DNA from: Blakeslea trispora
Lineage: Eukaryota; Mucoromycota; Mucoromycetes; Mucorales; Choanephoraceae
Direction: 5' to 3'
DNA length: 64,000 nucleotides
Assembly (NCBI GenBank): GCA_025331445.1
Contig: JAIWNE010000005.1
Location: 434,001 to 498,000, forward strand
A program made the position numbers and the translations under genes. Of this stretch, positions 38,961 through 61,343 are shown one piece after another; positions within the stretch are counted from its first letter, which is position 1; every line of letters begins with the position of its first letter. Below the pieces are notes generated by a model, which was not told the DNA's origin, did no database searches, and saw only the letters and a program-made list of their open reading frames with translations.

Positions 38961-39043
38961 TCCGGCCTACCTGATTCGAACAAGTGACCTAAAGATGACA
39001 GATTAACTACAGTCTTCCGCTCTACCAACTGAGCTAAGGCCGG
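38961..39043 (-). tRNA. tRNA-Tyr (anticodon GTA) with a 10-nt intron
   Basis: The minus strand folds as a tRNA. The acceptor CCGGCCT pairs with AGGCCGG with discriminator A. The D arm is GCTC/GAGC around AGTTGGTA. The anticodon stem GAAGA pairs with TCTTT, and the T arm is ACTTG-TTCGAAT-CAGGT. The anticodon loop reads CTGTAG...A with GTA at positions 34-36. A 10-nt intron (TTAATCTGTC) sits one base 3' of the anticodon, the normal place for eukaryotic tRNA-Tyr. The B box (GTTCGAATC) is intact and an oligo-T terminator follows. Its 5' end is exactly the insertion point of the LINE at 39044, and its first 15 nt are duplicated at 43795-43809. Confidence 0.92.
39029..39043. repeat. Target-site duplication of the LINE, copy 1 (inside tRNA-Tyr)
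   Basis: 15-bp direct repeat ctgagctaaggccgg, identical to 43795-43809. Flanking bases differ on both sides, so the repeat is exactly 15 bp. On the minus strand it is tRNA nucleotides 1-15. Confidence 0.9.
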
Positions 39044-39254
39044 GCGCTTTTCCATCACTTTTAGTTGTTTGAATTAAGTTACGTAATCTACCCCTCCAAA
39101 TTTTAGCCAATCAGAAGCCAGTATACTAAAGAAGTATATTAGCTTACCACCCAAGTCAACAGTAACAACATACATAACTTTCAGCGAAAGCGTAGACCTC
39201 TAGCAACAGTTATACCTATTTTTTGTCGAGTTGTTTTGAAAGTTACTTTTCGAG

Positions 39255-40190
39255 ATGACTTCACCATTGCAATCACATGCACCTACCTCCTTTGTTCGCA
39301 ACTCACAAGTTGACTTGCAACAACTTCAAGATCTCGTGTTGCAGTTGCAACAACAAGTTCAACAACATGATGGGCTCTTCAAACATATTGAATCTCTTCA
39401 AGAAAAAATTTTTTCCCTGGAGGAAAAAAATAAAAAATTAGCTACTGAGAATGAAAGACTTCTCAAATTAGTTGACAATCAGGTGACCGTACCTGACTCC
39501 CAAGTCTCTGTTGCCTCCAATGGTATCTCTGCTTCTTCCTGGGCCGCTGCTGCTGCCAAGCCCGCTGTCTCTCCTCCTCCTGCACCTGCCAAGAAGGTAC
39601 GTGCACCTTCAACCAAGAAGCGTGCAGCTATTGCTCGTTTCTTTGTGAGCCCTGGGGCCAAAGGTCCTCAAGGCTTTAAATACGTCTACCTTGGGCGTTC
39701 CAGAAAGATCAATCGATCTGAAGTTCGCTCTCGTCTTCGCCGTATTGGCGTTGACACTGGTCGAGTTCTCGACATTTCCTTTCCTGCCTCTGGTGTTCTT
39801 GGTGTGCTTATGCATGTCCAGTATGTGGAGCAATTCACTGCTGTCATGCAGAAAGCCGGCGCCGAACTCATTACGGATTTCGATCCTTTAAGCCCTGCCC
39901 ACCTCGCCGATCCCAAGTTCTCCTCTCTCTCTGACGATGAAAGAGAACAACAAATGCTCGAGTTGGTACGTGATCGTGCCATCTCTACTCTCTCTTTCCT
40001 CCGTCCTCTCGTTGTTTCTCCTGTTGCTCGCTCTTTCTTGGAGTGGGGCTGGATTGATGACGATGATGTCAAGATGTGCGTCGCTGCTGCTGAAGCTAGG
40101 CTTCCAAAGACCTCTTCCTCCTCCTCTCAGTTTGCTTTCCGCACTGAACCTCAGGTTGACTCTGACGTTGGCTCTGATATGGAACTTTAA
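39255..40190 (+). CDS. LINE ORF1 protein (coiled coil plus RNA-binding-like domain)
   Basis: Intact, 311 residues. The N-terminal part is a long Gln/Leu-rich coiled coil (LQQLQDLVLQLQQQVQQHDG onward, about residues 20-75). An Ala/Pro linker and a basic segment (KKVRAPSTKKRAAIARFF) follow. The middle region (FKYVYLGRSRKINRSEVRSR) has an RRM-like look, and the C-terminal half is helical. No zinc knuckle is seen. LINE ORF1 proteins bind and package element RNA, often as coiled-coil trimers. The stop codon overlaps the ORF2 start. The name rests on position and layout more than on family motifs. Confidence 0.8.
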   Translation: MTSPLQSHAPTSFVRNSQVDLQQLQDLVLQLQQQVQQHDGLFKHIESLQEKIFSLEEKNKKLATENERLLKLVDNQVTVPDSQVSVASNGISASSWAAAAAKPAVSPPPAPAKKVRAPSTKKRAAIARFFVSPGAKGPQGFKYVYLGRSRKINRSEVRSRLRRIGVDTGRVLDISFPASGVLGVLMHVQYVEQFTAVMQKAGAELITDFDPLSPAHLADPKFSSLSDDEREQQMLELVRDRAISTLSFLRPLVVSPVARSFLEWGWIDDDDVKMCVAAAEARLPKTSSSSSQFAFRTEPQVDSDVGSDMEL

Positions 40191-43100
40191 TGAGTTCATC
40201 ATCATCCCCCTCACATTCCTTTTATTTAAGTCTCTTTAATGCAAATGGCCTTAGTCAATCTACTGTCCATGATGTACTCTCCCATTCCGCTCATTCTGAT
40301 ATTCTCTTTGTAACTGAAACCTGGCTCACAGCCGGCTATCTTCCTGTCAATTGGTCTCAGTACCATTTGTATGGATCAAAGGTAGTTGGTGCTAACAACC
40401 GTGGCCAAGGTGGAATTACTGCTCTCATTTCCCCCCACTGTCCTCATACCATCTCTCAACTTCCCTCCCTCAATGCATATACTTTATCCTTGAAAATAGG
40501 TGCAGTCAATGTGCATTGTGTATATTTTCCACCCAGTATCTCTGACGATCTGGTGATATCCTCTCTCAAGCAAATCCCCCTTCATTCAGACACTATCATT
40601 TGTGGTGATTTCAATGCAAGAATGGGCTCTCTCACTGGCGATTCAAGAACTACTCCTCGTGGTGTTCGTTTGCAAACTCTTTGTGAACAACGCTCACTTG
40701 AAGTATTGAATGCTTCTCTGGCATATGGTGTTGCTACGTTTAGTACTTTTCGACAGGAAGCTGAACATAGCAGTATCATTGATCTTTTTCTGACGAATAT
40801 CTCCTCATGGAATATGACTCATCTCAGTCTAACTGTAGAAACTGATCTGTCACTAGGTTCGGACCATAGGCTAATGACTCTGTCGTTTGACTATGTTCCA
40901 CCTTTGGGATCTGGGGGTAACTCTGACGGCACTCTTGCTCCTAGAAGACTATGGAATCTCTCACGTCTAAGTGAGTTAGAACCTTTAGCTCTCTTTAGAA
41001 GTAAGTTTGCTTCCTTGGTCTCTGGTCTGTCTCTGACTCTGGATTCCCTGGTTTCTGACCCACCACTGACTCGGCCTGATATTGATGCGCTGAATGCCAC
41101 TCTTAATGAGTGCTTCTACGTAGCTTTGGATGGTTCGATAGGTGTGAAGGTCAATGGTCCTGGTCGTTGGTGGAAAAAGTACTGGACAGAAGAAATAGAA
41201 ACTGCTGCAAAAAAGCGTGATCAGTGTTTTGGTCGTTGGCGTCATGCTGTTGGTGTTGACAAAGCCTTCTGGTGGAATCAACATAAAGATGCTCATCGTC
41301 ACTTTCGCCGCCTCATCTCCGCTGCTAAACGTCTCTCTTGGAAGAACTTTTGTGATTCTTTAGAAAAAGACTTTAAAAAAGCTATTTCTACTCTTGCGCG
41401 TATTAAACGTCGCCGTGACTGCTCCTCGTCCTTTAGTCATGCTGATGGTCCTCAAGCAGCCGTATCTGTTATGGCCGATCATCTAGCCTCTGTCTATAGT
41501 GGCTCTCTCCTCCCCTCCGCTTCTCGTCCCCCACCTACTCCCTCTTTCAGTAGTTCAGCTCCGTTTACGTTGTCTGACTCTGATAAGGAGAATTTCGCTG
41601 TTGATGCAATCATGGATCATATCCGCCGTCTACCTACAAGGAAGGCTCCTGGTAACGATCACCTGAAAGCAGAAATGCTGAAGGCCGTTGCCAGTGTAGT
41701 CTCTCCAGTGCTCTCTTCTCTCTTTCAGCTTTGTTGCCAATGGGGTTATACTCCTTTGCTCTGGCGCACTGCTAGTGTATTTCCAATACACAAGAAGAAT
41801 GATCCTGCTGACCCAGCAAATTATTGACCTATCTCGCTGACTTCTGTTATGCGTAAACTCTTTGAGTTTTCCATTTCTGGTTGTCTCGAGGACCACTCGC
41901 CTCAACTTGACGTGGCCCAAGGTGGCTTTCGTGCTCAACGTAGTCCTCTGGATCAAGCCCTCTGCTTGCATGACTTGATGCATGACTACTTTCTCTCTCA
42001 CAAGCACCGTCCTGTTGTTGCGTTTCTTGACATCAAGGCTGCATACGATACCGTCGACAGACGTGTTATCTGGGATGCTCTTTCTACCTCTACGTTGCCT
42101 CGCCCGATTCTTGCTACTCTCATCAATTTATTTGATGAAGTACAGGTCTCGGTGCTGATTGCTAACCATACCTCTGCTCCCTTTGCGCCTGCTACTGGTG
42201 TCCTTCAAGGATCCGTGCTCTCACCTCTTCTGTACTCTGTGTACATCAACTCGCTGCCTTCTCTCCTTCGCTCTGTCGCTTCGGTCGATACTACTTCGGT
42301 ATGTCTTCCTGGCACAAATGAGCCTCTGGCTATTAATTGTCTGCTTTTTGCAGATGATGTAGCTATCTTCGGTTCGCGATCGCAAGTACAGCGTATGCTG
42401 GATCTTGCTGATGATCATTCCTTCTCTCTCGGGTATCGGTGGAGTCCTTCCAAGTGTGCTGTTATCAACGCCACGGACGATGGCCCACGTCTGACCCTCT
42501 ACAACCAACCTCTTCCACTTGTGGATGAGTTCATCTACCTTGGTGTTCCTTTCCGGTCCTCTGGTATACATAGTGCGAGCATTTTGTCTCATCGATCTGC
42601 CTCCGCTATTAAAACCATGGCTCTCCTTACCTCTGTCGGCGTCCATCGCAATGGCTTTTCTCTCCTTCTCTGCTCTCGCCTCTACACCTGTTTTGTGCGT
42701 CCAAAAATTGAGTATGGCCTAGCCATATCTCGTTTTTCTGCCCAAGAAATGGATCAGCTTGACAAACTTCAAAACAGACTTGTGAGCATGTTCGTCGGTG
42801 GATCATGGTTCCAGGTTGCTATGCACCTCACATGTATCCCCAGCATGAATCATCGCCACAATGTTCTTGTTACAAAATACGCTCTCCGATCTCAGTATCT
42901 TCCTGATGATTGTCTCCTTCTCCTTTTGCGCGATTCGCTCCGCTATCCTCGTTTGGTCAAAGGCCTACAACACAACCCTCTTTTTCTCTCTCTTCCTTCG
43001 CCCCCACCCGTCTCTGACGTTGAACTTCGTGTTCATTTCCAGGACTACTGGCAGGAAATCTTCAACAAGAAAATGGAACGCAGTGCCCGTCTTAACCGAC

Positions 43101-43513
43101 ATGTCCTTCTCCGTGCCTGCCGACCTTGTACCTTCAAGCCTGACCCCATCCTCTACCTGCCCATGTCTCGCGTTCAACGTAGCCTTTTGGTTCGTTGGCG
43201 TTTAGGTCGATTCATCAACCTCCGAGAAGAGTGTCCTTGTGCCTCTGGCCAGTACCTCTCTTGTGATCACCTTCTGACATGTCGTGCACTCGATCCCTCC
43301 CTCCTTGATGCTTTGCCCCGTCCTCCTCCTGGTGTGCACATCATTGATTTCGCTCTCAACTGTCTCCCTACAAACGCTGCCTCTAATCCTCCACCTTATT
43401 GGTATGCTCTTCTCCAACTGCTCCATAGCATAGATTGCTTGCGCCACCCGTTGGCCACAATCCCCTTCATCCCCGATCCTGGTGATCGTTGGTTCTGCTC
43501 TCCCTCTCCATAA
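40190..43513 (+). pseudogene. LINE ORF2: APE endonuclease and reverse transcriptase, one nonsense codon
   Basis: About 1107 codons in one frame. The N-terminal APE-type endonuclease shows FNANGL, FVTETWL, ICGDFNARMG, IIDLFL and GSDHRL. The reverse transcriptase follows with RKAPGNDHLKAEML, VVAFLDIKAAYDTVDRR, GVLQGSVLSPLLYSVYINSL and LLFADDVAIFG (catalytic FADD). A Cys/His cluster (CPCASGQYLSCDHLLTC) lies near the C-terminus, as in many LINEs. No RNase H domain is seen. The only defect is TGA at 41825-41827, where the family has Arg (NY-stop-PISLTS); one C-to-T change from CGA explains it. The ATG at 40190 overlaps the ORF1 stop. The copy looks recently inactivated, or the stop may be suppressed. 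Confidence 0.88.
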
Positions 43514-43794
43514 ATGAAAGAATACTGCTCTGTCTTTTCACTGCGCTGCCACGGTGGTAAGTAATTATCAAAGTTCCCAGCCGTTGGTCATGCCTTTGAT
43601 TGCAAGCTTTATTCGAGTAATTTTTTTCTTTTCTACATCTTTTTCCTCTTGTCTTTTTTCCCTTTTTGTTCGTTTTCTGTGGGGGTTTTCTTTCTGTTTC
43701 GCCTCTATTTTTTTAGATTAGTTCATGCAATTTGGCATTATGCTCCATTGAGTAGCCCATATAATTGTTTTGTAAATAAAAAAGAAATCTTTAC

Positions 43795-43809
43795 CTGAGC
43801 TAAGGCCGG
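43795..43809. repeat. Target-site duplication of the LINE, copy 2
   Basis: The second copy of the 15-bp repeat ctgagctaaggccgg directly follows the LINE 3' end. The sequence after it should be the original 5' flank of the tRNA-Tyr gene. Confidence 0.9.
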
Positions 43810-43851
43810 CTGACGATGTGTTAAACCAGTTGGTGCAATATGTAGTATTTT

Positions 43852-57472: not shown

Positions 57473-58378
57473 ATGTCAGAAGTTACACCTGAGACTATCA
57501 GTGATATTCAACAGCAATTGTCGGTTACACAACAACTCTTGGAGAAGCTTGTACTACAAACAAACCAAAACAGACCCGCTGAAGATGCCAATATCAGTGC
57601 TACCCCTCTTTCTGATATGGAAGAGGTTGTCGACCGTACCCCTGTACACTCTATTGCAGTACGACAGCAGTTCGACTGGACGCCCCCTGAGGAATTGAGC
57701 GAGATTCTTGGATATAAGACCCCTGTTTTCACCGCTCCTCCTTTAGGAGACAATCAACGCAAGGAGCTTATCGAAGCGTACCCTCCAATGCGTCACATGG
57801 AGTACAAAGCTCCCAACACTGTTCCTGAGGCTTACAAGCAGATGAACAAAGGTCAACAGCATGAGGATGCCGTATTGAAGGATACTCAATACCTTCTTTC
57901 GGGTGTCCTCCGCCCTTTGGACATCTTAGGCTTTGAGATCTATACAGCTGATATTCCAGACAACGATGCTGAGCGTTTCTTATTGATGATTCGAGACGTC
58001 CGCTCGTTAGTGTTGAATGTTGCCTCTACAATCAACCATCATCGCAATAAGCTTGCACTCCGCGCAGTACACCCTTCCTTTTCATTGCCATCACCTGCTT
58101 CGAATACCACCTACACAATGTCTGCCAACGATTTTGCCGCTTCTATTGCTCAGCAAACTGCTGCAGGTAAGACATTGAGAGAAGCTAGGGGCCTTGGTAG
58201 AAACAAGGGCAAAACAAAGCGTAGATTCCAACAGAATGTCAGTGAATCTTCCTCTTCCTCTTCCTCTGCCTCGCCTGGGACCTCTCAGTCGTATTTTCGG
58301 CGGGATCACACTCCCAAACAGAACAACCCGTTTTCGAACAAGAAACCAGTTTCAAAGACCAACAGCAAGCATCAGTAA
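57473..58378 (+). CDS. DIRS gag-like protein
   Basis: Intact, 301 residues. A helical N-terminus (ISDIQQQLSVTQQLLEKLVL) and an acidic region come first. The central domain has YPPMRHMEYKAPNTVPEAYK and LKDTQYLLSGVLRPLDILGF, the type of gag-like first ORF found in DIRS elements. The C-terminal 70 residues are basic and Ser/Asn-rich (RGLGRNKGKTKRRFQQN), suited to nucleic-acid binding. No zinc knuckle is seen. The stop at 58376-58378 lies where the reverse transcriptase frame begins. Confidence 0.82.
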   Translation: MSEVTPETISDIQQQLSVTQQLLEKLVLQTNQNRPAEDANISATPLSDMEEVVDRTPVHSIAVRQQFDWTPPEELSEILGYKTPVFTAPPLGDNQRKELIEAYPPMRHMEYKAPNTVPEAYKQMNKGQQHEDAVLKDTQYLLSGVLRPLDILGFEIYTADIPDNDAERFLLMIRDVRSLVLNVASTINHHRNKLALRAVHPSFSLPSPASNTTYTMSANDFAASIAQQTAAGKTLREARGLGRNKGKTKRRFQQNVSESSSSSSSASPGTSQSYFRRDHTPKQNNPFSNKKPVSKTNSKHQ

Positions 58379-61343
58379 GCTTGCGTCCCAACCCATCTCT
58401 CTCAACAGAGATAGGTTTAGTAGGAGGTCGCCTTCAACAGTTCGCGACACAATGGATTCAACTCTTCCCAAACCATCACCTCTTGTCATCCGTCCAACAC
58501 GGTTTCAAAATTCCTTTCCATACACCTCCTCCTCTCAAAAACGCCCTCCCTTGTTCCAACATTTCCGCCGCCACTTCCGGAAACCTACCATCCGATTTAG
58601 ACGATGCTCTTATGGAATTACTGCAGAAGAACGCCATCGAGCAAGTCGACCAGTCGGACGCCTACTCCAGCTTCGTAAGTCCTATATTTACCGTTCCCAA
58701 GAAAACAGGCGGGGTAAGGCCAGTTTTCAACTTGAAAGCACTCAATCAATATGTGGAGTGTCCTCACTTCAAAATGGAGACCATACAGGACATAGCACTA
58801 ATGATCAAACCAAAGGACTACATGGTTTCCATAGATCTCTCGGATGCATTCCTTCATCTCCCTCTTCATCCCAGTTCTCGCCGATTTCTTCGCTTCCGCT
58901 GGAAGAACCAACTTTACCAGTTCTGCACCACACCTTTCGGCCTGAACATAGTCCCGTACTGGTTCACCAAAATAACACGCCCCATTGTAGAATGGGCACG
59001 GCAACAGGGTATCCGGCTAGCAGCTTACCTAGACGATTGGATCATTATGGGCGAATCAGTAGAGTTGGTCCGCCAACATACAACCATGATCCTCTCTTGT
59101 CTTCGCAATCTAGGTTGGTTAGTAAACCTCAAGAAATCCAATCTGCAGCCATCGCAGCACATCGAGCATCTGGGGTTTCTTCTGAACACAGAAACCATGC
59201 AGGCCTCATTACCTGGCAAGAAGCTACGAGACCTTCTGAGGGCTCTTCGTCAAGTTTGCCGCCAACCATGCCAAACTCCTCGCAGAGTACAGAGCTTGAT
59301 TATGCGACTTCAGGCAGCAACCTTCGCAGTATTTCCAACGCGCCTGTACACACGACACTTACTATATCAGAAGAACCAATGGATGCGATCCGATCCTCGA
59401 TGGGATGTGCCTCAACCCCTGAGTCCTCTAGCGATGGAAGAGTTGAAATGGTGGATAGACAACTTGGCGAGTTGGAATGGCCGTTCCCTGATTCCCTCAA
59501 CAGCGTCAGCAACCCTTTATGTAGACGCATCCAATACCGGATGGGGATGCTCTTACCAGAACCAGACAGCCTTTGGACATTGGACACACGAGGAAAGTAT
59601 GCAACACATCAATTGGAAGGAACTGATGGCAGCATTCCTTGCCTTGAGAGCATTCCCTCAACTTCACCAACAACATGTCTTGATTCGTACAGACAACACG
59701 ACTTCGCTCGCATACATCAAGAAACAGGGAGGTACCCGATCCTACGACCTGATGTATCTTGCGACCAAGCTCTGGAAATGGTGTTTGAAGAGAGGACTAA
59801 CGCTCTCAGCTCAGCATATACCAGGGATCGACAACAAGACGGCAGACATGCAATCGCGACGACTCTTCTACAAGAATCAATGGCAGGTAAAACCAAGCGT
59901 ATTTCGCTCCATCATCAGGCTGTGGTCAATTCGCCCAGATGTGGACCTATTCGCCGATCGAACAACGAACCTGTGCGCAAAATACGTCTCGTGGAAGCGC
60001 GACCCAGGCGCATGGCAGATAGACGCCTTCTCCCTAAAGTGGTCACAATTCCGATTGCCGTGGATCAATCCACCTTGGAACTTGATAATGAGGTATGTCG
60101 AGAAAATACGTCGAGAGAGAATATCTCAACCTTCTGTCCTCGTAACCCCGTATTGGACGAGCGCACCTTGGTTTCCGTTCCTTCAGCAAATGGCTCTCTG
60201 CCAGCCTCTCCTCCTTTACCAGCCGGACATACAGCCAACATCACCGCTGACAACATGCCCATTGACCGCAACCAAATCCAGTCTCTCCGTTTGGATGCTC
60301 TCCGCGGCTCCTCTTTGAGCGCGGGCTTGTCAGCAGAATCATTGGCTCTCATACACCATCCTCGTTTAGTTGACTCAGCCACCAACCGTTCATACAAAAG
60401 GGGACAAGAACTGTTTGTTGTGTGGGCCTTAGAGCAGGACGTCAGTCCCACCAAGTTCAGCACATCTGATTTGACTAACTTCCTATCTCATCTGTTTCAC
60501 TCACGAGGTTACCAGATTGGCACCTTACGACTTATACGTTCTGCTGCTACCCATCTTCACGAAGCGCCCGATTCTCTGCGAAACCCGGATAACAATCCGA
60601 TCACAGCGCTACTTGATTCTTTGGCTCATCAAGCACCTCCTCGCCCCCAATATAAATCTAAAGTCGACCTTTCCAAAACTCTGAAGTTTTTAGCCAATGT
60701 TCCTTCCACTGTCTCTACCTCATTGGCCTCTCTTCAGCCAAAGGTCGCATTTTTGCTTGGGATGGCTGCTTTTCTCCGTCCGTCAGATCTGCATCGCATT
60801 GACCTCTCTAGCTGCAAAATTGACACTGCGGGTTCGCTTTGCTTTGACGTTGTTGCTCCAAAAGAGCGCCGCAAGGGCCAACGAATCATCAAAACGCTCA
60901 CTGTTCATTCACACGCAAATTCGTCGAACCTCTGTCCTGTTCGTGCTTTTACTGCGCTTCGTGACCATCCTCGTGCCAGATCGTTAAGGTCGCCCAAATC
61001 CTTATTCGTTCACTCGACTAAACCAGGTCAGCCCATCCTTGTCACTACAATTTCCTCCTGGATTCGCCGCCTTGTCCGCTTATCTACCACGGAACCAAGG
61101 GTGTCTCTTCGGTCTGTTGCTGCCACACTGGCCTTAGAAAATGATGTCCCTCTTCAGGACATTATCACTTTGGGGAACTGGTCTTCCTCATCGACCTTTG
61201 AGCAGCACTACCGACGCCATACAATGCTCCGTACGGATTTTACTTCTGTGGTTCTTTCCCCTGGTACTCTGCCCTCTCATGACGAAGATACTGATGATGA
61301 TATTTTTGCGGACGCTCCTTCGGATTTTCCTTCCGATTCTTAA
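58236..61343 (+). CDS. DIRS tyrosine recombinase
   Basis: The open frame starts at about 58194; the first ATG is 58236. The recognisable recombinase lies in the last 350 residues. SAM-like core-binding sequence includes SYKRGQELFVVWALEQDVSP. The catalytic domain has FLRPSDLHRI (first Arg), a VSLRSVAATLALENDVPLQ region (second Arg block), ITLGNWSSSSTF (Trp) and QHYRRHT (nucleophile Tyr). These enzymes join element circles to genomic DNA through a covalent 3'-phosphotyrosine. The preceding about 650 codons overlap the RT frame and are Arg/Ser/Pro-rich, so the true start may be nearer 60100 or depend on splicing. The C-terminus is acidic. Confidence 0.85.
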   Translation: MSVNLPLPLPLPRLGPLSRIFGGITLPNRTTRFRTRNQFQRPTASISKLASQPISLNRDRFSRRSPSTVRDTMDSTLPKPSPLVIRPTRFQNSFPYTSSSQKRPPLFQHFRRHFRKPTIRFRRCSYGITAEERHRASRPVGRLLQLRKSYIYRSQENRRGKASFQLESTQSICGVSSLQNGDHTGHSTNDQTKGLHGFHRSLGCIPSSPSSSQFSPISSLPLEEPTLPVLHHTFRPEHSPVLVHQNNTPHCRMGTATGYPASSLPRRLDHYGRISRVGPPTYNHDPLLSSQSRLVSKPQEIQSAAIAAHRASGVSSEHRNHAGLITWQEATRPSEGSSSSLPPTMPNSSQSTELDYATSGSNLRSISNAPVHTTLTISEEPMDAIRSSMGCASTPESSSDGRVEMVDRQLGELEWPFPDSLNSVSNPLCRRIQYRMGMLLPEPDSLWTLDTRGKYATHQLEGTDGSIPCLESIPSTSPTTCLDSYRQHDFARIHQETGRYPILRPDVSCDQALEMVFEERTNALSSAYTRDRQQDGRHAIATTLLQESMAGKTKRISLHHQAVVNSPRCGPIRRSNNEPVRKIRLVEARPRRMADRRLLPKVVTIPIAVDQSTLELDNEVCRENTSRENISTFCPRNPVLDERTLVSVPSANGSLPASPPLPAGHTANITADNMPIDRNQIQSLRLDALRGSSLSAGLSAESLALIHHPRLVDSATNRSYKRGQELFVVWALEQDVSPTKFSTSDLTNFLSHLFHSRGYQIGTLRLIRSAATHLHEAPDSLRNPDNNPITALLDSLAHQAPPRPQYKSKVDLSKTLKFLANVPSTVSTSLASLQPKVAFLLGMAAFLRPSDLHRIDLSSCKIDTAGSLCFDVVAPKERRKGQRIIKTLTVHSHANSSNLCPVRAFTALRDHPRARSLRSPKSLFVHSTKPGQPILVTTISSWIRRLVRLSTTEPRVSLRSVAATLALENDVPLQDIITLGNWSSSSTFEQHYRRHTMLRTDFTSVVLSPGTLPSHDEDTDDDIFADAPSDFPSDS
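58381..60318 (+). CDS. DIRS reverse transcriptase, RNase H and methyltransferase-like polyprotein
   Basis: Open for 645 codons in a frame -1 relative to gag, with no ATG at its start, so recoding, reinitiation or splicing is needed. The RT has VSPIFTVPKKTGGVRPVFNL, MVSIDLSDAFLHLPLHPSSR and the catalytic YLDD (about residues 216-219). RNase H follows with LYVDASNTGWG, NWKELMAAFLAL, IRTDNTTSLAYIKK and GIDNKTADMQSR. Downstream, VDLFADRTTNLCAKYVSWKR and WINPPWNLI (NPPW about residues 562-565) fit the DIRS methyltransferase-like domain. The whole region overlaps the recombinase frame, so about 1.9 kb is open in two frames at once. Confidence 0.88.
   Translation: MRPNPSLSTEIGLVGGRLQQFATQWIQLFPNHHLLSSVQHGFKIPFHTPPPLKNALPCSNISAATSGNLPSDLDDALMELLQKNAIEQVDQSDAYSSFVSPIFTVPKKTGGVRPVFNLKALNQYVECPHFKMETIQDIALMIKPKDYMVSIDLSDAFLHLPLHPSSRRFLRFRWKNQLYQFCTTPFGLNIVPYWFTKITRPIVEWARQQGIRLAAYLDDWIIMGESVELVRQHTTMILSCLRNLGWLVNLKKSNLQPSQHIEHLGFLLNTETMQASLPGKKLRDLLRALRQVCRQPCQTPRRVQSLIMRLQAATFAVFPTRLYTRHLLYQKNQWMRSDPRWDVPQPLSPLAMEELKWWIDNLASWNGRSLIPSTASATLYVDASNTGWGCSYQNQTAFGHWTHEESMQHINWKELMAAFLALRAFPQLHQQHVLIRTDNTTSLAYIKKQGGTRSYDLMYLATKLWKWCLKRGLTLSAQHIPGIDNKTADMQSRRLFYKNQWQVKPSVFRSIIRLWSIRPDVDLFADRTTNLCAKYVSWKRDPGAWQIDAFSLKWSQFRLPWINPPWNLIMRYVEKIRRERISQPSVLVTPYWTSAPWFPFLQQMALCQPLLLYQPDIQPTSPLTTCPLTATKSSLSVWMLSAAPL

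Follow-up and report, generated by a model that had tools for sequence, protein, structure and literature searches.

A LINE inserted at the 5' end of a tRNA-Tyr gene

The window analyzed in this work is a stretch of 64,000 nucleotides (nt) from the fungus Blakeslea trispora (GenBank assembly GCA_025331445.1, contig JAIWNE010000005.1, positions 434,001 to 498,000 of the forward strand). It contains a tRNA-Tyr(GTA) gene and, adjoining nt 1 of this gene, a long interspersed nuclear element (LINE) of a family, termed here family 1, which very probably inserts site-specifically into the 5' part of tRNA genes. The features of the locus, including the open reading frames (ORFs) and the 3' untranslated region (UTR) of the element, were the following (positions in the window):

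38961..39043, minus strand: tRNA-Tyr(GTA) gene, intact, the insertion target (ARAGORN and sequence)
39030..39043, minus strand: left copy of the 14-bp target-site duplication, tRNA nt 1-14, comprising the acceptor 5' strand and the A box to A14 (sequence, junction reading)
39044..43795, plus strand: family-1 LINE, antisense to the tRNA, its 5' end adjoining tRNA nt 1 (blastn boundaries over the copies)
39255..40190, plus strand: ORF1, 311 amino acids (ORF reading)
40190..43513, plus strand: ORF2, which in the window copy contains an in-frame TGA (41825-41827) (ORF reading, comparison with sister copies)
40235..40876, plus strand: APE-type endonuclease domain of ORF2 (Pfam profiles PF14529 and PF03372)
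41873..42550, plus strand: reverse transcriptase (RT) domain of ORF2 (Pfam profile PF00078)
43514..43795, plus strand: 3' UTR, with terminus AAATCTTT(T)ACC and without poly(A) (sequence)
43796..43809, minus strand: relic of tRNA-Tyr nt 1-14, the right copy of the duplication (sequence, junction reading)
43810..43850, no strand assigned: upstream flank resumes, presumed original tRNA-Tyr leader (inferred from the exact duplication)

An earlier note, made from the letters of this stretch, had described a LINE abutting the 5' end of the tRNA-Tyr and a duplication that rebuilds an intact tRNA. Both statements were borne out: the tRNA read by ARAGORN ended at 39043 and the element started at 39044, and the intact gene was accompanied by a relic of nt 1-14 past the 3' end of the element. 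The direct repeat ctgagctaaggccgg comprised 15 identical bases (39029-39043 and 43795-43809), 14 of which correspond to the target. The window copy was devoid of the 10-nt 5' terminus ACTTTTCTTT present in other copies.

Profile searches identified in ORF2 an APE endonuclease (PF14529, E 5.5e-12; PF03372, E 9.3e-7) and a RT (PF00078, E 1.2e-20), a content that makes the family-1 element an APE-type LINE; no RNase H family was obtained after the RT at E ≤ 1 in the 554-amino acid C-terminal piece of ORF2 by profile search, the only method applied. ORF2 was open over 1107 amino acids in the sister copies L035 and L037, and the full or near-full copies of family 1 (n = 11) displayed a mutual identity of 97-99.8%; because of the open ORF2 and this high identity, the family was probably active in the recent past. 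In the near-identical copy L037, ORF1 presented a predicted coiled coil (residues 21-77) and a predicted helical C-terminal part (227-282), as well as, tentatively, an RRM-like fold at about 140-208. Among the 7991 candidates scored by phmmer, the matches with named hosts came from Mucoromycota (Mucor saturninus, M. velutinosus, Rhizopus, Cokeromyces, Gilbertella, Pilaira, and Parasitella, with more distant relatives in Umbelopsis) and from two weak plant proteins.

3' junctions and tRNA relics of family 1

The genome (37.2 Mb, 285 contigs) was searched with the 3' end of the element plus its flank. At least 19 places were obtained, corresponding to 18 element 3' ends and one flank-only match, and the relics were compared with twelve tRNAs read by ARAGORN. 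The 3' end of the element was near-constant across the 18 ends; C followed by TGA was found at all of them, and TGAGC at 17. The exact complement of nt 14-1 of a tRNA followed the element in 13 of the 18 cases and two more relics were one base off (L036, with one base differing from tRNA-Lys, and L040, with a one-base loss with respect to tRNA-Phe). Targets of these relics were the Tyr, Cys, Thr, Phe, Ile, and Lys tRNAs. The relic corresponded to nt 1-14 of the locus's own tRNA in nine of the ten loci in which both were readable.

The geometry of these insertions is thus antisense, with the 3' junction at A14/N15, the 5' junction at nt 1, and a 14-bp duplication; each insertion leaves a complete tRNA gene beside the 5' end of the element, whose 3' end is followed by a relic of 14 nt. 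As a separate observation, a sequence starting with CACTAC(A), which resembles the ends of CACTA-type DNA transposons, was present at about 0-350 bp from the tRNA relics in L030-L034, L036, L038, L040, and L042, its position in L042 being immediately behind TGA. This recurrence may indicate that another element favors sites downstream of tRNA relics.

Position of the cut

Nucleotide 15 of tRNA-Lys is A, which would give T at the junction, yet the junctions at the tRNA-Lys loci L032 and L035 carried C, as the base before TGA did at all 18 family-1 3' ends. The junction C is therefore the last base of the element, which would place the priming nick 3' of A14 and makes the duplication one of 14 bp (nt 1-14). 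The earlier note had equated the duplication with tRNA nt 1-15 and set the cut at mature position 1. Its 15 identical bases do exist, but the fifteenth is a coincidence, nt 15 of tRNA-Tyr being G; a break at position 1 agrees with that of the second strand, whereas the priming nick would fall inside the A box. The junctions of all four families described in this work were compatible with a break after A14, a nucleotide regarded as universal in tRNAs. The element ended in all four families in a purine followed by CC (RCC); tRNAs generally carry GG at nt 18-19.

5' junctions and the ACTTTTCTTT terminus

The pattern TGAGCYA-N(4-10)-ACTTTTCTTT, which covers spacings from 4 to 10 only, gave 17 matches genome-wide, with a spacing of 7 in 15 of them and of 6 and 8 in one each, and the reversed-pattern control gave two. 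A spacing of 7 means that the element starts at tRNA nt 1. Three of the 17 matches (C266, C280:59368, and C140) corresponded not to intact tRNAs but to relics preceding another 5' end. By junction reading, 9 of 17 family-1 5' ends adjoined a tRNA directly, and at L031 (C280) a tRNA-Phe matching the relic lay 5.2 kb upstream. A longer 5' region of around 1.1 kb, containing a tRNA-B-box-like GTTCGAATC motif, was observed in L026 and L033 and partly in L046.

The sequence ACTTTTCTTT is common to elements whose 5' regions otherwise differ: it occurred at family-1 5' ends, beside the tRNA-Met of C271 upstream of a family-2 element, and at the tRNA-Phe of C280, as well as, in part varied, after several relics. 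The possibility that it represents the native tRNA leader was discarded: at element 5' ends it is contiguous with the tRNA, whereas the 12 loci chosen as native-looking (window, L026-L029, L034, L035, L037, L039, L043, L048, and L050) lacked it past the relic or past the tRNA free of an element. Outside these 12 stand L049, without ACTTTTCTTT and resembling the 5' region at C280; L041 and L042, with no clean relic; and L030-L033, L036, L038, and L040, in which relics are followed by ACTTTT-type sequence. We interpret the latter as the 5' terminus of an element inserted earlier, a second element having been evidenced at C280 only. Our guess is that ACTTTTCTTT is kept because, as the new 5' leader, it preserves tRNA expression.

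Other LINE families with the same geometry

When the RT half was used as a protein query against the host genome, at least 82 matches were obtained (78 of the 184 first-look candidates were scored) and other LINE families came up, with RTs about 37-63% identical to that of family 1 in the larger pieces. Family 2 (C49, C271, and C280; 53-63% identity in the best pieces) has the 3' end AAATCTTTAACC, which was followed in all three cases by nt 14-1 of a tRNA (Thr, Met, and Phe).

Family 3 (about 40-51% identity) was collected through its own terminal 15-mer, flanks being ignored, which gave 20 3' ends and none in the control. The flank started with TA at all 20 ends and consisted of an exact 14-mer in 14 of them (GGTTTCTTGGTGTA in 10 and TCTTCGGTAGTATA in 4, by coordinates), which we take to be Val-like and Asp-like tRNA starts. 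As a direct repeat, the 14-mer was found again beyond the other end of the element at C25 (61161/66554), C69 (15889/21281), C7 (43314/48697), and C19 (4211/9577); at C60, a short copy (<0.9 kb) likewise had both repeats (52239/53107). In addition, TACATTT was seen after family-3 ends at C213 and C27:73006.

Family 4 (37-49% identity by piece) had GCGCGGTTGGTTAAG on both sides at C21, C29, and C79, and only its 3' copy at C36; an intact tRNA-Gly(GCC) at C214 starts with GCGCGGTTGGTTAAG. Among the four family-4 3' ends fetched, those of C29, C36, and C21 had ...CACC-TTAACCAACCGCGC in common and diverged beyond it. Different LINE families thus share the same geometry at different tRNAs, which amounts to 36 3' junctions (15/18 in family 1, 3/3 in family 2, 14/20 in family 3, and 4/5 of the family-4 copies examined). 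Features typical of LINEs, i.e., 5'-truncated copies and target-site duplications, were present as well (short copy of C60, C213 copy, and the 14-bp duplications).

A more distant LINE at C144 (L065; 44% RT identity, single copy) ran into a 5S rRNA-like sequence (RF00001, 39.7 bits vs. a cut-off of 38), being possibly a 5S-targeting sister or an element with a captured 5S tail. Matches to ATATCATTTACCTGAGC (C112:393.8k, C136, C214, and C255; L051-L054) were considered as the 3' end of another family and discarded, since no recognizable tRNA relic came after TGAGC. Five matches to AAACTCTTTTGCTTATACAC were obtained (two at C206 and three at C247), besides other matches with two mismatches. Elsewhere in the window, two adjoining ORFs at 57473-61343, the second with a Phage_integrase (PF00589) tyrosine-recombinase domain barely over the Pfam cut-off, possibly represent a Crypton- or DIRS-like element.

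Reuse of the target

Since the duplication spans nt 1-14, the whole tRNA including its A box is regenerated at each insertion, and the same gene can be used again. At C112, GGTTTCTTGGTGTA was found at 70360, 75754, and 81146, the second and the third being immediately preceded by family-3 3' ends and both intervals containing RT sequence, which corresponds to a series of two elements, each of about 5.4 kb. At C190, its occurrence at 172610, 174407, and 179792 corresponded to one such element of about 5.4 kb and a short one, and at C280 both a family-1 and a family-2 element had tRNA-Phe relics. The target being rebuilt each time, the newest element would stand next to the tRNA, and stacks supply the relative order of insertion at single loci.

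Exceptions and alternative explanations

Taken together, these data point to a site-specific APE-type LINE that targets the 5' part of tRNA genes, presumably via target-primed reverse transcription, a reading to which we assign a probability of about 0.93. With copies collected genome-wide and their flanks compared with tRNAs, insertion at unrelated sites was not the outcome, and the specificity of a fungal APE-type LINE for tRNA genes raised by the earlier note stood, with the junction at 15 of 18 family-1 3' ends and three more families.

Several observations weigh against this reading or against its generality. Three of the 18 family-1 relics were unclean: L034 (C279) had a tRNA-Tyr on the left and a Lys-like relic with a deletion on the right, and is a chimera produced by recombination between copies or by an assembly join; the relic of L041 was degraded; and that of L042 was interrupted, another transposon starting directly after TGA. 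On the 5' side, about 25-40 nt of other sequence separated the tRNA from the aligning part in L035 and L040, the tRNA-Tyr of L026 was 1.16 kb away, behind the longer 5' region, and no tRNA was found within the stretch examined at the 5' ends of L031, L033, L045, L046, and L047. Six of the 20 family-3 flanks (C73, C282, C277, C27, C213, and C278) displayed other sequences; the C213 copy (L058/L059), which is 5'-truncated, had an 11-bp duplication, TACATTTTTGT, just upstream of a tRNA-His and outside the A box. A family-4 3' end at C110 departed earlier and had no relic. A LINE at C2 (L066; 44% RT identity, single copy) ended in oligo(A) without a relic, which indicates that not every relative targets tRNAs in this way and provides a useful contrast as a non-targeting relative. 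Finally, the placement of the junction at A14 depends on the tRNA-Lys loci of family 1: nt 15 was G in every family-2 and family-4 tRNA read and family 3 was analyzed without a tRNA read, so that A14 and N15 are indistinguishable in families 2-4.

A different account, possible but in our opinion doubtful, holds that the RNA polymerase III (Pol III) machinery (TFIIIB/TFIIIC) mainly sets the target and that a loosely specific endonuclease cuts at the nearest acceptable step, as proposed for TRE5-A. This would agree with the use of tRNA genes by all four families, with the single LINE running into 5S rRNA-like sequence, and with the C213 copy, which lies near the A box of the tRNA-His and not inside it, as well as with reports, in the available parts of the sources, that TRE5-A needs the B box and that its ORF1 protein binds TFIIIB subunits (PMC5006619, PMC5391098). 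However, a choice made by the complex alone would not be expected to sort by sequence, and GCTCA preceded the nick in all family-1 and family-2 relics read except the interrupted L042, with mainly GTRTA in family 3 and GGTTAA in family 4; moreover, junctions were base-exact here, in contrast with the window of 47 ± 3 bp of TRE5-A. Each family appears to be tuned to a subset of tRNAs by the bases before the nick. On the strand of the tRNA, the C213 site is ATGTA^G, which resembles the Val-like A box and hints that a short local motif together with nearness to a tRNA gene may be enough for insertion. The sorting of families favors a specificity read from sequence, and the C213 copy and the 5S-fused relative favor a certain contribution of Pol III genes in themselves. 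The elements may make contact with the Pol III machinery, and their specificity may come from DNA sequence, Pol III factors, or both; the earlier note had likewise allowed for recognition of acceptor/D-arm DNA or of a Pol III complex.

That the tRNA is carried by the element, as a tRNA-derived head or promoter, instead of being its target is very improbable. A tRNA does stand at the same place beside many copies, but different copies have different tRNAs, to which the 14-nt relic corresponds in nine of ten loci, while the eleven element copies are 97-99.8% identical, and the tRNA-Phe at L043 exists with no family-1 match in its 9.5-kb surroundings; this locus-specific match of tRNA and relic refutes the idea. 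Chance insertion beside one tRNA gene, which the earlier note had allowed and to which the single copy in the window would lend itself, has a negligible probability and is refuted by the recurrence of the junction over four families, including three family-4 elements with both repeats.

Proposed mechanism

For tRNA-targeting LINEs with this geometry, the ORF2 endonuclease would nick the sense strand of the tRNA 3' of A14, and the ...A14-OH end would then serve as primer for the RT, which would start at the ...RCC 3' end of the LINE RNA, with the second (antisense) strand being cut between -1 and +1. Base pairing of the RCC end with the conserved G18-G19, located immediately beyond the nick, is a putative contact that could help position the template. 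Insertion should be nearly harmless, the target being regenerated by design. A broader picture, which we offer tentatively and hold to be more doubtful than probable, is that a fungal LINE clade turned the Pol III A box into a reusable docking site: tRNAs would be divided among families by nt 10-14, elements would pile up in time-ordered towers with 14-nt relics between them, ACTTTTCTTT would be kept as a leader preserving expression, and the RCC ends of the RNAs would pair with G18-G19.

Comparison with known systems

The comparison was based on the available parts of PMC5006619, PMC5911963, PMC5391098, PMC3706591, PMC5014426, PMC7175516, PMC6875170, PMC8869645, PMC4640811, and PMC7265360, and the statements that follow are limited to them. 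No report of a fungal or an APE-type LINE within tRNA genes was found in the literature searched, to which most subscription papers and Repbase did not belong, so that a description elsewhere is possible.

NeSL-1_TV is an element of Trichomonas. Together with the LIN elements, it provides a precedent for non-LTR (long terminal repeat) retrotransposons specific for tRNA genes (NeSL-1_TV in tRNA-Pro, LIN15_SM in tRNA-Arg, and LIN25_SM in tRNA-Glu; PMC4640811), these elements being regarded in that source as related to the NeSL lineage; Dewa is reported for a tRNA-Leu spacer (PMC3706591). The NeSL lineage has a restriction-like endonuclease and the LIN hosts are planaria (PMC4640811); each of these elements uses one tRNA type, whereas family 1 of Mucorales has an APE domain at the N terminus of ORF2 in place of such an enzyme and uses at least six isotypes, with the junction at A14. 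Dp_NLTR-A of Dictyostelium purpureum has the same APE-RT arrangement as the elements studied here but a RNase H domain and a social amoeba as host; its end lies 2-6 bp from mature tRNA nt 1, on the upstream side (PMC5006619, PMC5911963), vs. 0 bp here where readable, and a tRNA-internal duplication is absent from the available part of its description. It was the nearest of the four non-LTR tRNA targeters, all dictyostelid, in the part shown of a 2018 review table. TRE5-A of Dictyostelium discoideum, also an APE LINE, uses many tRNA genes, one tandem insertion at a tRNA gene having been described (PMC5391098). It inserts about 47 ± 3 bp upstream, whereas here the 3' junction was within the tRNA at 15 of 18 ends and 9 of 17 5' ends were directly at nt 1; since TRE5-A inserts upstream of the tRNA and not within it, its duplication would not rebuild the gene.

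The A box is also the target of the Dada DNA transposons (five fish lineages and Perkinsus families; nt 8-13, including TAGCTC), whose lineages sort by tRNA sequence (PMC8869645, PMC3706591). Dada elements encode a DDE transposase, generate a 6-bp duplication, and are described as disrupting the tRNA, in contrast with the RT/APE proteins and the 14-bp duplication of nt 1-14 found here. Keno (U2 snRNA) and other Tx1/R1-clade APE LINEs likewise have specific targets in multicopy sequences, but different ones (PMC4640811). Ty3 and DGLT-A, located immediately upstream of tRNA genes, about 15 bp before mature nt 1 (PMC5911963, PMC5006619), are integrase-based LTR elements, unlike the LINEs of Mucorales.

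The multi-family, A-box-specific, and target-rebuilding group of LINEs described in this work is larger than first noted. It adds the tRNA A box, at A14, as a new target of APE LINEs, the fungal tRNA targeters in the available parts of the sources surveyed being LTR elements and not LINEs. The host gene is left whole and can serve as target again; by contrast, these sources describe a disruption of the target by R1/R2 and Dada insertions. Because related families read different A-box sequences, comparing the endonucleases could reveal how a base-exact specificity is achieved by APE LINEs, a matter of basic interest that also has a bearing on site-specific insertion tools for safe, multicopy sites.

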